From the NCBI RefSeq assembly GCF_009834025.1, contig NZ_CP047156.1, positions 1,116,001 to 1,180,000 on the forward strand: DNA of 64,000 bases. Direction: 5' to 3'. This DNA comes from Epidermidibacterium keratini (GTDB lineage Bacteria > Actinomycetota > Actinomycetes > Mycobacteriales > Antricoccaceae). Position numbers and translations under genes: made by a program. How positions within the stretch are numbered: position 1 is the stretch's first letter; every line of letters begins with the position of its first letter. Positions 25,097 through 51,280 of the stretch are shown here, piece by piece. Below the pieces are notes generated by a model that saw only the letters and a program-made list of their open reading frames with translations, was not told the origin of the DNA and ran no database searches.

Positions 25097-26011
25097 CTAC
25101 GCCGCCGGGTTGATCTGCGGGTCGTCCAGAGCGCCTTCGTCAGCGCTCCACTTCTTCAGGATCTCGTCGTACGTCCCATCCTTCTGCAGCGACTCCAGCG
25201 CGGCGAGTACGGCGTTCGCGAACTCGGTGTTGCCCTTCGGCAGCGCGATGCCGTAGGGCGCGGCGTCGTACATCTCGCCGACCTCGACAAGCTTGCCGTC
25301 GTTGCTGCGGATGGCGTCGATGACGACCGGCAGGTCGGCGAGCATCGCGTCGGCCTTGCCGGTGACGACGGCGGTGGTCGCATCACCCTGGCTGTCGTAG
25401 GGCTGGATCTCGATGGGCTGCTCACCGTCGGCGACGCACTTGTCCGAGCGTCCGGGCAGCTCCTCCTCCTGGACGGTGCCGACCTGGACGGCGACCGCCT
25501 TGCCGCACGCGGTGTCCGGCGTGATGTCCGAGCCCTCGGCCGCTGCCCACAGCGTGCCGGCGTTGTAGTAGCTGACGAAATCGACGACCTGCATGCGCTC
25601 TGCGTTGATGGTGAACGAGCTGATTGCCAGGTCGTAGGTCGAGCCAATCGAGGGGATGATGCTCTCGAAGGCCGCGGTCTCCGGCTCCATCTCGACGCCG
25701 AGCTTGTTGCCGATCGCCTTGATCAGGTCGATGTCCATGCCGATGATCGTCTTGCCGTCGGAGTCGATGTACTCATTCGGCGGGTACGTCGTGTCGGTGC
25801 CGACCGTCAGCGTGCCCTTGCTCTTGAGGTCGGCCGGCAGCATTCCCGCGGCCGCGTCGTCGACCTTGACGTCGTCGAGGTTGAACGAGCTCTCTTCGTT
25901 GGTCTTCGACTGCCCGTCCTCGTTGGTGGTACCGCCGCACGCGGAAAGCACGAGCCCGGCGGTGAGGGTGACAGCGGCCGCGGCGAGTGCGCGGCGAGAA
26001 CGGTGAAACAT
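25097..26011 (-). CDS. Polar amino-acid ABC transporter substrate-binding lipoprotein
   Basis: 304 residues, SBP family 3. The signal peptide ends in the lipobox LVLSACGG (Cys about residue 25), so it is a membrane-anchored lipoprotein. Family features: LTVGTDTTYPPNEYIDSDGK, GMDIDLIKAIGNKLGVE, and a C-terminal TYDEILKKW. This type binds glutamine, glutamate, arginine or similar amino acids. It is the first gene of a three-gene importer unit. Confidence 0.94.
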   Translation of the reverse strand: MFHRSRRALAAAAVTLTAGLVLSACGGTTNEDGQSKTNEESSFNLDDVKVDDAAAGMLPADLKSKGTLTVGTDTTYPPNEYIDSDGKTIIGMDIDLIKAIGNKLGVEMEPETAAFESIIPSIGSTYDLAISSFTINAERMQVVDFVSYYNAGTLWAAAEGSDITPDTACGKAVAVQVGTVQEEELPGRSDKCVADGEQPIEIQPYDSQGDATTAVVTGKADAMLADLPVVIDAIRSNDGKLVEVGEMYDAAPYGIALPKGNTEFANAVLAALESLQKDGTYDEILKKWSADEGALDDPQINPAA

Positions 26012-26150
26012 GAGACCTCCGAGGCAACGGTTAAGCGACGTTAATCGAACCTTAGGGCCTCACCCCGTCGCAGTCACGCATGCGCAGCGGGCACTTCGCA
26101 AAGTCGGTTGCGCGGTACGCCGGACCGGACGTACTTTCGTGGGACACAAG

Positions 26151-26353
26151 GAAGGAGGTGGTCCAAAAGTGAATTCTTTTAGGACTTGTGAGGTGGTCCT
26201 CCGCTAGCAGCGGACCCACGCTCGCCGTGGACGTTTCGTCTGCTGCGAATCCAACTGGACCACCCAATTCCCAGGCGCTGACCTAGTCCAGTCAGCCTGC
26301 GCCGCTCGCGGTGCAGAAGTGCCTGGGAATTGCCATGCCCGCATTTGCCCAGG
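26151..26353 (+). ncRNA. Structured leader RNA with upstream ORF and three-way junction
   Basis: The 456-base gap 26012-26467 contains a strong ribosome site (26151-26160), a 12-codon ORF (26169-26207) and a compact fold. P1 pairs CAATTCCCAGGC (26265-26276) with GCCTGGGAATTG (26321-26332). Inside it are P2, GCTGAC/GTCAGC (26277-26282, 26291-26296), and P3, CTGCGCCG/CGGTGCAG (26297-26304, 26309-26316), with only AAGT unpaired before P1 closes. CCCAGG at 26348-26353 duplicates the left P1 sequence and could compete for the right arm. GGTGGTCC occurs at 26157-26164 and 26192-26199 and can pair with GGACCACC at 26257-26264. This looks like a translation-coupled switch. I do not recognise a named RNA class. 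Confidence 0.6.
26169..26207 (+). CDS. 12-codon leader peptide ORF
   Basis: GTG AAT TCT ... CGC TAG encodes MNSFRTCEVVLR. AAGGAGGTGG, a near-perfect match to the 16S anti-Shine-Dalgarno, lies about ten bases upstream. Its last codons overlap one copy of GGTGGTCC, so a ribosome here would block that pairing. Too short to assign by itself; the ribosome site and the structure downstream are the support. Confidence 0.5.
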   Translation: MNSFRTCEVVLR

Positions 26354-26467
26354 TGAGAGCCAAAAAGCGCGAGCCTCTTTACGCGCGGAGTGCCGTGGGT
26401 CACAATGGGTCGCGACGCTGCCGCGTGGGCTGGGCCCACATCGGCATGCCCCCCGAAGGGAGGGACC

Positions 26468-26938
26468 ATGGCTACCGCCCCGGATGCCCGAAGCGTGCAC
26501 CATCGCCCGCACCAGCCGACTCGCGCGGGTGCACGGCTGCAAGCAGTGCCCGATCCCGCGCCGTCAGACCTCTACGGCCCGCAGCACACCGAGATCGAAC
26601 GATTGATCGGCGCCGTACGCCGCATCAGCACCGACGACGATCGCGCCGTGGAGCGGTACTGGTACAACCACCGCGGCGCCCAGCGGTTCGCCGCCCGTGG
26701 CGCCGCATCCCAGGTCGCCTCGGCGATGGGCCGTCTCGAAGCGCAGATCTTCGCCCGCCAGCAGGTGTGGGCGGCCTCGGACAACCTCTCACGCGATGCT
26801 GCTGGCGACGCCGCACACGCGCTCGCCGTACGCGACCTCATCGGCGAGACGTTTCCGCAGCAGGCCTACGACGAGCTGGTTGCTCCGTGGGCATCAGTCA
26901 TGGGTGGCGTGCATCCCGAAGACCACGCCGACAAGTAG
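26468..26938 (+). CDS. Unrecognised 156-residue helical protein downstream of the structured leader
   Basis: ATG at 26468 with GGGAGGG just upstream. The first ~40 residues are Pro/His/Ala-rich and probably disordered. The rest is charged and mostly helical (HTEIERLIGAVRRISTDDDR, then ERYWYNHRGAQRFAARGAAS, ending GVHPEDHADK). No membrane segment, signal peptide, Cys cluster or nucleotide-binding motif is seen. I do not recognise the family. The gene stands alone between the amino-acid importer (divergent) and the M18 peptidase (convergent), with a 450-base leader; its expression is probably controlled in that leader. Confidence 0.75.
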   Translation: MATAPDARSVHHRPHQPTRAGARLQAVPDPAPSDLYGPQHTEIERLIGAVRRISTDDDRAVERYWYNHRGAQRFAARGAASQVASAMGRLEAQIFARQQVWAASDNLSRDAAGDAAHALAVRDLIGETFPQQAYDELVAPWASVMGGVHPEDHADK

Positions 26939-26947
26939 CGCCTTCGC

Positions 26948-28207
26948 CTAGCTGCCAGACAGGTACGCCGTCAGGGCGTCGGTGAGCTGCCCAGGATCAG
27001 TGACCCCGCACATCTCACGCGCCGAGTGCATCGACAGCAGCGCAATCCCCACGTCGACGGTCGTGAGGCCAAGGCGGGTGGCAGTGAGCGGACCGATCGT
27101 CGACCCGCACGGCACCGCGTTGTTGGAGACAAACTCCTGCACGGGTACGTCGGCCGCTGCACAAGCCTGCCGCCACATCGCGATTCCCACGCCGTCACTG
27201 GCGTAGCGCTGGTTGGCGTTGATCTTCAGCAGAGGACCCGCGCCCGGCAGCGGCCGGTGCGTGGGGTCGTGCCGCTCGGGATAGTTGGGGTGCACGGCGT
27301 GCCCCGCGTCCGCTGACACACAGCTGGAGACCGCGAGCGCGCGCCGCAGCTCATCGGTGCCGCCGCCGAGCGCGGTCGTGATGGCCTGCAGTACGTCGGG
27401 CAGGATCGGCCCGCTCGCGCCGGAGCGAGTCTCGCTGCCGACCTCCTCGTGGTCGAACGCGATCAGGACCTCGACCTGCGGGCCGCCGTCGCTGGCCAGC
27501 AGAGCGGCCAGCCCGGCGTGCACCGATGACAGGTTGTCGAGGCGCCCGCAGGCCAAGAACTCCTCGCGCCCGCCAAAGACTGCGCCACGCTGCGTGTCGA
27601 AGGCGACGACGTCGTGGCCGGCGACATCACCGGCCGACAGTCCGGCAGCCGAGGCGAGGCGCTCGAGTACGTCGCCGCCGTCGATCCCCCACACCGGCTG
27701 CAGATGGGTCTGGCGGTTCAGCACCAGCCCGTCGTTGACCGCGCGGTCGAGGTGGATCGCCAGCTGCGGAATCCGCATCACCGCACCGGTGCGCACGAGG
27801 TGGGTGCCTCCGTCGCGGTCGACCAGCCGTCCGGCAAGTCCAAGGTCGCGGTCCAGCCACGAGTTGACCAGGGGCCCGCCGTACACCTCGACCGGGACTT
27901 GTTGCCAGCCATAGCTGGAAAGTTCGGGGACCGGCTTGAGCTTGAAGGTCGGCGAGTCGGTGTGCGCGCCAACGATCCGGAAGCCGGTCGTCGCGTCGGC
28001 GCCGGACGGGATGCGCCAGGCGACGACCGCGCCGTCGCGCACCAGCACGTAGCCGCCGGGATCGCCTGAGTACGGCTCGGACTCGTCGACCCGGACGAAA
28101 CCGGCGTCCTCCGCTCGGCGCGCTACCTCGTGTGCGGCGTGGTAGGACGACGGCGAGGCGCCAACGAAGTCCACAAGGTCACTGAGGTGCGCGGCGGGCT
28201 GCGCCAT
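26948..28207 (-). CDS. apeB: M18 family aminopeptidase (aspartyl aminopeptidase-like)
   Basis: 419 residues, a zinc aminopeptidase that removes N-terminal acidic or neutral residues in the cytoplasm. Metal-ligand motifs visible: VGAHTDSPTFKLKP, CGRLDNLSSVHAGL, FDHEEVGSETRSGA, and the end STIGPLTATRLGLTTVDVG plus LLSMHSAREM. Length matches the family. Its ATG shares one base with the nitrobindin stop (TGATG), so the two are co-translated. It converges with the 156-residue gene, with nine bases between stops. Confidence 0.94.
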   Translation of the reverse strand: MAQPAAHLSDLVDFVGASPSSYHAAHEVARRAEDAGFVRVDESEPYSGDPGGYVLVRDGAVVAWRIPSGADATTGFRIVGAHTDSPTFKLKPVPELSSYGWQQVPVEVYGGPLVNSWLDRDLGLAGRLVDRDGGTHLVRTGAVMRIPQLAIHLDRAVNDGLVLNRQTHLQPVWGIDGGDVLERLASAAGLSAGDVAGHDVVAFDTQRGAVFGGREEFLACGRLDNLSSVHAGLAALLASDGGPQVEVLIAFDHEEVGSETRSGASGPILPDVLQAITTALGGGTDELRRALAVSSCVSADAGHAVHPNYPERHDPTHRPLPGAGPLLKINANQRYASDGVGIAMWRQACAAADVPVQEFVSNNAVPCGSTIGPLTATRLGLTTVDVGIALLSMHSAREMCGVTDPGQLTDALTAYLSGS

Positions 28208-46317: not shown

Positions 46318-46405
46318 GCGATGCCGGCGTATCTGACTCACCGCAGTGCGGCTCACAGTGGCGCGACCGTCCCGGACTTGCACCGGGTTCCGTCGGCATC
46401 GCGCG
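46318..46405 (-). promoter_or_regulatory. Cobalamin riboswitch upstream of cbiM
   Basis: On the minus strand the core reads GGAACCCGGTGCAAGTCCGG then GTCGCGCCACTGTGAGCC and the B12-box part TGAGTCAGATAC. P1 can form between plus-strand 46318-46329 and 46392-46405. Stem sequences between here and the ATG (46285-46317) are the likely expression platform acting on the GAGGAG ribosome site. Represses cobalt uptake when cobalamin is sufficient. Confidence 0.92.
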
Positions 46406-51195: not shown

Positions 51196-51280
51196 TGGCC
51201 GCCGGGCGAGGAATTCGGTGCGATTCCGAAGCGGTCCCGCCACTGTGAGCGCTCACGCGCGAGCCAGGACGTCGCCGCGG
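51196..51280 (+). promoter_or_regulatory. Cobalamin riboswitch upstream of chelatase-cobB-cobA
   Basis: GAGGAATTCGGTGCGATTCC, then GGTCCCGCCACTGTGAGCG and the closing GAGCCAGGAC are the conserved cobalamin riboswitch blocks. The expression platform probably runs to the AGGAG ribosome site at 51341, with GC-rich pairing in 51280-51335. Placed in the divergent spacer; cobL-cobM on the other strand shows no such element. Confidence 0.9.

Follow-up and report, generated by a model that had tools for sequence, protein, structure and literature searches.

In leader-peptide attenuators, for example those of trp and whiB7, translation of a short ORF competes with RNA helices. Dual-function sRNAs, among them SgrS, SR1 and RNAIII, are free-standing RNAs with a short ORF. 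For S. aureus, the accessible part of one report describes an extended Shine-Dalgarno initiation in which the pairing with 16S rRNA is prolonged toward the start codon, along with sORFs and unusual start codons (PMC13009471). The closest described RNA to the locus studied here is Ms_IGR-5. In the accessible parts of the literature, this RNA has RNA-seq support in S. lividans (PMC8079986), is described as an sRNA transcription unit in S. avermitilis (PMC8780764), and is overlapped by ncMSMEG15794c in M. smegmatis (PMC10454040), while a review states that the sRNAs of the founding M. smegmatis study (Li et al.) were confirmed by northern blot and 5′ RACE (PMC4109619). Ribosome-protected reads on Ms_IGR-5 are reported for M. 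abscessus and M. smegmatis (PMC4974804); according to the authors of that report, ribosome footprints are common on many non-coding RNAs, so that footprints alone are weak evidence. The parts of these sources that were surveyed list Ms_IGR-5 as an sRNA and contain no function for it, nor any description of an ORF, a match to 16S rRNA or a knot. The predicted features that are new here are the ORF, the 13-nt complementarity to 16S rRNA, helix H2 and the pseudoknot.

The DNA analysed, called the window, is a stretch of 64,000 nucleotides from Epidermidibacterium keratini. The Rfam model of Ms_IGR-5, RF02471, matches it with an E value of 1.2e-11, covering model positions 1–184 of 184 with a score above the curated gathering score (Table 1). 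Judged by this covariance-model match, 26144–26319 is a member of the Ms_IGR-5 family, an actinobacterial sRNA. The first-pass annotation had matched the region to no named riboswitch, which holds in that no riboswitch family matches 25900–26700 even at E up to 1, but a named RNA family does match. The locus is an ordinary member of this known family; what gives it interest is the nature of the family as it now emerges.

Table 1 Positions of the RNA elements and neighbouring features in window coordinates
Feature	Position	Strand	Remarks
Promoter pattern of the RNA	26100–26137	+	AAA 26100–26102, TTG 26108–26110, TACTTT 26132–26137
Match to Rfam RF02471 Ms_IGR-5	26144–26319	+	63.1 bits, gathering 45, whole model 1–184
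Extended Shine-Dalgarno AAGGAGGTGGTCC	26152–26164	+	13 nt complementary to the 16S rRNA 3′ end
12-codon ORF VNSFRTCEVVLR	26169–26207	+	GTG to TAG; ORF in 127/127 non-redundant loci
Pseudoknot strand GGAC (codons 5–6)	26182–26185	+	pairs with P2-loop GUCC 26286–26289
H2, 5′ strand (ORF codons 8–11)	26192–26199	+	covarying with 26257–26264
Possible stem P4 around the stop codon and a variable hairpin	26202–26247	+	stem 26203–26205/26244–26246
H2, 3′ strand GGACCACC	26257–26264	+	directly before P1
P1, 5′ strand	26265–26276	+	12 perfect pairs with 26321–26332
P2 hairpin	26277–26296	+	stem 26277–26282/26291–26296; loop CTAGTCCA, holding GUCC 26286–26289
P3 hairpin	26297–26316	+	26297–26304/26309–26316, one G-U; from sequence and fold
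P1, 3′ strand	26321–26332	+	pairs with 26265–26276
Promoter-like motif GGTCACAAT	26398–26406	+	beyond the RNA, before the next gene
156-residue gene of unassigned function	26468–26938	+	neighbour outside the RNA; matched by neither Pfam nor NCBIfam (E up to 1)

A covariance search of the genome that contains the window finds one RF02471 copy. The model is matched in 4 of the 5 genomes of the window's family and, with strict filters, in 171 of the 200 genomes of the order and 192 of the 296 genomes of the class. Because 29 of the 200 and 104 of the 296 genomes have no match under these filters, the RNA may be dispensable there or lie below the sensitivity of the search. A second model, R1, was built with H2, P1 and P2 from 40 sequences including that of the window, which it scores at 130.2 bits against 63.1 for RF02471, as is to be read for one of its own training sequences. 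At E up to 0.001, R1 finds a match in 88 of 296 genomes of a phylum sample; 69 of the 88 lie outside the class, and the weakest matches are near the threshold. In viral contigs, a search with one exact pattern gave 0 copies of the RNA. Elsewhere in the window, an AdoCbl riboswitch aptamer match (RF01482) lies at 46318–46402 on the minus strand (52.2 bits, cut-off 50), and 5 kb away a second candidate cobalamin element (RF00174, Cobalamin riboswitch) lies at 51210–51270 on the plus strand with 41 bits.

For the counts given below, 145 loci were picked by the Rfam covariance model and not by motif, and were brought to 127 by k-mer similarity reduction and removal of sequences with N; the positions of the elements inside the loci were set by motif search. 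Another 120 named loci, which came from a search pattern including the motif itself, are excluded from all counts. Outside the class, 31 loci of the 69 matched genomes were inspected, namely the best-scoring ones and 20 chosen by hand, weak ones included; L287, lying inside the class, was excluded from this set.

The length of the Shine-Dalgarno stretch should be noted. The 13 nt of 26152–26164 can pair with the 16S rRNA 3′ end in an ungapped manner, and the pairing is kept in 1650 of 1651 cells (13 positions in 127 loci). Among 82 departures from the window's letter, 81 still pair with 16S rRNA, and 7 of the 13 positions are invariant, hence uninformative. At base 26165, the pairing is kept in 120 of the 127 loci. 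The sequence AAGGAGGTGRTCC occurs twice in the genome, at the RNA locus and opposite the 16S 3′ end. The near-perfect ribosome site described in the first-pass annotation lies where it was placed, and its 16S duplex is the best among 63,984 18-nt stretches of the window scanned with a 16-nt 16S tail at every second base on both strands: it reaches −29.0, the runner-up −21.9.

The 12-codon ORF proposed downstream of this site is likewise in place, its frame being kept in all 127 loci. It has 12 codons in 123 loci and 13 in 4, and codon 5 lies 12 nt from the start in 125 loci and 15 nt from it in 2. The start codons are TTG (76), ATG (30), GTG (20) and ATC (1), and the stop codons are TAG (113), TAA (9) and TGA (5). 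In the variable part of the ORF, stop triplets account for 0 of 383 in frame, and for 7 and 67 of 383 in the other frames. Codon 6 is T in 120 of the loci, and codons 8 and 9 are E and V in all, whereas residues vary at codons 5, 7, 10, 11 and 12. Codon 5 gives R, W, G or T and codon 7 gives R, C, S, G or E, while the bases GG and GAGGTG are constant, suggesting that base identity reflects constraint from the RNA and the reading frame constraint from translation. The residue variation at these five codons is compatible, too, with a frame conserved for the sake of the RNA, but the changing stops and the 3-nt indels argue against this.

Outside the class, 30 of the 31 inspected loci have an ORF of 10–15 codons ending at the same stop, 19 with ATG, GTG or TTG as a start and 11 with only CTG, ATT or ATC. 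Shuffling the variable part of these loci leaves such an ORF in 9.6 of them on average and in at most 19, and 0 of 1000 shuffles reach 30. With canonical starts only, the observed 19 compares with a mean of 5.6 and a maximum of 13 in the shuffles. The comparison of loci indicates that the ORF is under selection as a reading frame and is probably translated.

The base frequencies upstream of 144 of the 145 covariance-picked loci show an A-rich −43/−42, T-T at −36/−35 and T/A at −12/−11, as well as conserved T at −8/−7, G at −2 and ACAC at 0. The transcription start is likely to lie near 26142–26144. Within 25900–27000, a scan for a strict sigma-70 consensus gave no site and a scan for simple intrinsic terminators gave none. 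The RNA appears to have its own promoter pattern and would be transcribed here as a free-standing molecule of about 190 nt.

The fold of 26151–26360 has an energy of −95.4 kcal/mol (z −4.09), and 0 of 200 shuffles are as good. The perfect 12-bp outer stem and the two inner stems of the first-pass annotation are present in the window sequence, where only AAGT 26317–26320 is left over inside P1 beyond P2 and P3. Across the loci, P1 is paired in 94.4% of 1520 cells, and 217 changed on both sides against a shuffle mean of 58.5 (0 of 2000 shuffles as high); these shuffles, like those below, ignore relatedness, and their fractions are not probabilities. P2 is paired in 71.4% of 751 cells in the 127-locus alignment, with 105 changed on both sides against 46.0 in the shuffles (0 of 2000). 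P3 is variable in relatives and sometimes absent, as judged by eye. The possible stem P4 is partly supported: its three pairs are kept in 88%, 95% and 94% of cells, with U-G and U-A types at the third.

The last codons of the ORF and the segment before the three-way junction form helix H2. In the Rfam structure this helix is absent: that structure leaves the strand before the 3′ hairpin unpaired and joins part of the Shine-Dalgarno stretch to the ORF end. In other respects, RF02471 and the window agree in the start motif ACAC, the Shine-Dalgarno stretch, GUGAGGUGG and the 3′ hairpin. H2 is paired in 97.3% of 1016 cells, with 38 changed on both sides against a shuffle mean of 4.5 (0 of 2000); its pair types are reached by 1 of 2000 shuffles, and slid registers are only 25.5–69.6% paired. 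Covariation in homologues, the check that had been named for the fold, is found in P1, P2 and H2. In a second alignment (A1) of 40 of the 127 sequences, the whole structure including the knot is paired in 93.1% of cells, and none of the 500 shuffles or of the slides reaches it on any of the five measures.

Two competing pairings had been proposed for the window, and they fare differently from the stems. One was that two copies of GGTGGTCC, at 26157–26164 in the ribosome site and at 26192–26199 at the ORF end, compete for GGACCACC. The second copy is the strand paired in H2, but the first is paired in 74.2% of cells, which is not above shuffles, and it was rejected as a rival partner. Of the 127 loci, only the window's own carries the exact GGTGGTCC repeat at the ORF end. 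The other was that a second CCCAGG displaces the outer stem. This copy is present at 26348–26353, but a repeat of the P1-strand hexamer within 40 nt after P1 is only weakly enriched, in 23 of 127 loci against 10 of 124 for a control stretch.

The position of GGAC in the ORF should also be noted, since the P2 loop holds its complement. The GGAC/GUCC knot is paired in 508 of 508 cells, with 5 changed on both sides (0 of 2000 shuffles), and its pair types are not above shuffles (450 of 2000). Three of the four pairs are constant without covariation; all the covariation comes from the remaining pair, nearly all of it within a single family. This family (f41), where the informative variation of the knot lies, was sampled, and the RNA was found in 97 of its 120 genomes. 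Among 96 distinct sequences, GGAC/GUCC occurs in 77, GGAU/AUCC in 14, GGAU/GUCC in 1, GGAC/GUCU in 1 and GGAC/AUCC in 0; with the RUCC pattern used for reading, 3 of the 96 are unreadable, namely two of the 80 GGAC sequences and the mislocated L414. GGAU/AUCC is found in three genera that each also contain GGAC/GUCC, which is a tally of genera and not of events on a tree. The comparison supports the GGAC/GUCC knot as real in the family. H2 and P1 abut without a linker and could stack, and P2 may lie back along P1 with its loop meeting the ORF. In five outside-class loci (L303, L304, L308, L315 and L316), P2 is deleted or replaced, so that they are without the knot, while the ribosome site, H2 and P1 remain. 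The same five of the 31 read the motif, GGAGGTGG, in another frame to give a different peptide; the loss of the knot and the change of frame coincide.

A second partner of GGAC may exist in the ribosome site. Ribosome-site GUCC and ORF GGAC are paired in 98.8% of 508 cells, with 1 changed on both sides and 531 of 2000 shuffles as high. Of the 6 unpaired cells, 5 combine ribosome-site AUCC with ORF GGAC. In f41, however, GGAU is found in 4 of the 5 sequences with ribosome-site AUCC versus 11 of the 91 others. These counts hint that GGAC has two partners, the ribosome site and the P2 loop. A switch in which GGAC chooses between the two GUCC strands is possible, and it would be a competition like that of the first-pass annotation with other partners.

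Beyond P1, the motif TG[TC]CC occurs within 28 nt (window 26333–26360) in 60 of 127 loci, versus 5–10 of 123–127 in six control stretches; by eye, it does not follow the change to GGAU in the GGAU loci. In several of the loci L290–L297, strong inverted repeats after P1 resemble intrinsic terminators by eye, so P1 is perhaps not a terminator there.

The 156-residue gene that follows the RNA is flanked by genes for an amino-acid-type binding protein and an M18 aminopeptidase. The RNA had been read as a leader controlling this gene, and a cis-acting leader, attenuator or riboswitch, would suit its position directly before the gene on the same strand in 4 of the 5 family genomes. Elsewhere, however, no downstream gene is conserved. 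The nearest downstream ORF, chosen by a rule of similarity and length, lies on the same strand in 51 of 125 loci and on the opposite strand in 64, so that the convergent arrangement is slightly commoner (10 loci are without a call), and these ORFs fall into 27 cluster-and-strand classes, singletons being lumped, with no conserved identity. The gene itself is found in 5 of 150 order genomes, all in the window's family, versus 171 of 200 for the RNA, which is class-wide. Furthermore, G002, a genome of the window's family, keeps the gene, its neighbours and the promoter-like motif without the RNA, for which there is no match at the locus and none above 12.8 bits genome-wide. A motif like GGTCACAAT precedes the same gene in L032, L033 and L034, and in L322, which is without the RNA, it has the form GGTAACAAT as judged by eye. 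The sRNA transcription unit that the accessible part of the S. avermitilis report describes (PMC8780764) also speaks against a leader. The comparison points to an RNA independent of the next gene. The leader reading was rejected on the lack of a conserved downstream gene and on G002, and we regard it as highly improbable.

The reading that we consider probable is a free-standing Ms_IGR-5 RNA of about 190 nt with a fold gated by the ribosome. A 30S subunit would bind the 13-nt Shine-Dalgarno stretch and the 12-codon ORF would be translated, while the bases of the ORF would also serve as structure in the GGAC/GUCC pseudoknot and H2. Without a ribosome, the RNA would take a knotted form in which H2 stacks on P1 and the P2 loop docks on the ORF. 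A ribosome reading to the stop would open the knot and H2 and halt just beyond H2, freeing the C-rich H2 strand (UCACC) and the P2 loop (GUCC). Since the ribosome must open both elements, the anatomy suggests that the closed and translated states should exclude each other in the cell. As for an output in trans, the freed C-rich strands might pair with other RNAs, or the RNA might mainly capture 30S subunits; the fixed stop codon and the frame appear to speak for the freeing of strands or for a sensing role. An earlier proposal, that ribosome occupancy of the ORF or a ligand decides the fold and so the expression of the 156-residue gene, keeps the part on the ribosome, in that the frame is kept, the structure covaries and a ribosome should compete with it, and loses the control of the gene.

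Three other readings of a free-standing RNA bear on the ORF and its ribosome site. The RNA could be a ribosome decoy, in which the Shine-Dalgarno stretch holds 30S or 70S initiation complexes, the knot acts as a roadblock 13 nt after the start codon, and the ORF provides for turnover. The full complement to the 16S end, which is unique in the genome, kept across loci and the strongest such duplex in the window, would fit this, as would the ribosome-protected reads in mycobacteria given in the accessible part of PMC4974804. A pure decoy, however, needs neither a fixed stop nor a frame, and yet both are kept, so we consider a decoy unlikely, though not far-fetched. A dual-function sRNA with the 12-residue peptide as its product would account for the ORF in 127 of 127 loci, with T at codon 6 in 120 and with codons 8 and 9 always E and V. 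These codons are fixed as RNA, however: T at codon 6 gives way to M or I when the distant loop changes too, codon 7 can be any of five residues (R, C, S, G or E), and the five distant members use another frame for the same motif. We therefore think a peptide product very improbable.

The opposite reading, an ordinary non-coding sRNA in which conserved RNA motifs happen to create the ORF, accords with the filing of RF02471 as an sRNA in Rfam and with the RNA constraint on the 3′ half of the ORF. It is difficult to reconcile with stops that change among TAG, TAA and TGA and starts that change among TTG, ATG and GTG, with length differences of 3 nt, with the lack of in-frame stops against 67 of 383 in another frame, and with the shuffled control outside the class, in which 0 of 1000 reach the 30 of 31 observed. 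Such a by-product is, in our estimation, as hard to credit as the peptide.

The ribosome-gated reading can be carried further, tentatively and with low confidence, to a "ribosome meter" in which initiation by 16S pairing and termination toggle the RNA between the closed knot and the open form, tuning translation to free 30S subunits. The open form would expose strands resembling anti-Shine-Dalgarno sequences, the ORF would need no fixed peptide within its 10–15 codons, and GGAC, pairing with the GUCC of the ribosome site or that of the P2 loop, would perhaps be the lever. If a translated, knotted RNA indeed exists across much of Actinomycetota, it would rank with the broadly conserved bacterial RNAs. 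Footprints of ribosomes on an RNA taken to be non-coding would then be accounted for, and the RNA would offer a concrete structure for probing and allow a test of whether the translation of a meaningless ORF serves as a signal read by a stand-alone RNA.

The features described above were compared with those of known systems. Like leader-peptide attenuators, Ms_IGR-5 sets the translation of a short ORF against RNA helices. Unlike them, it has no conserved gene in cis and no run of special codons: neither the 125 loci nor G002 give an ORF conserved upstream of a regulated gene, and runs of one amino acid are found neither in the window's ORF nor in codons 4–12 of the 127 loci. As to mutually exclusive terminator and antiterminator helices, which it may or may not have, H2 and P1 are neighbours rather than alternatives, the rival pairing of the first GGTGGTCC copy is not conserved, and the simple scan lists no intrinsic terminator. 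With SgrS, SR1 and RNAIII, Ms_IGR-5 shares a free-standing RNA and a short ORF, which on comparative evidence is under selection and probably translated as in a dual-function sRNA; it differs in that the ORF would be part of a tertiary fold and that the frame rather than the peptide is conserved. RF01867 CC2171, a Caulobacter sRNA, has a consensus near its start, AAAGGAGGUGAUCCA, that likewise matches the 16S 3′ end, but the window scores 15.3 bits against its gathering score of 75 and does not belong to that family. The initiation described in the accessible part of the S. aureus report resembles that proposed here in the start-proximal extension of 16S pairing, the sORFs and the unusual starts (PMC13009471). 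There, extended pairing is common to many mRNAs, whereas here it would belong to one RNA, whose ORF is knotted and whose match to 16S rRNA spans 13 nt.
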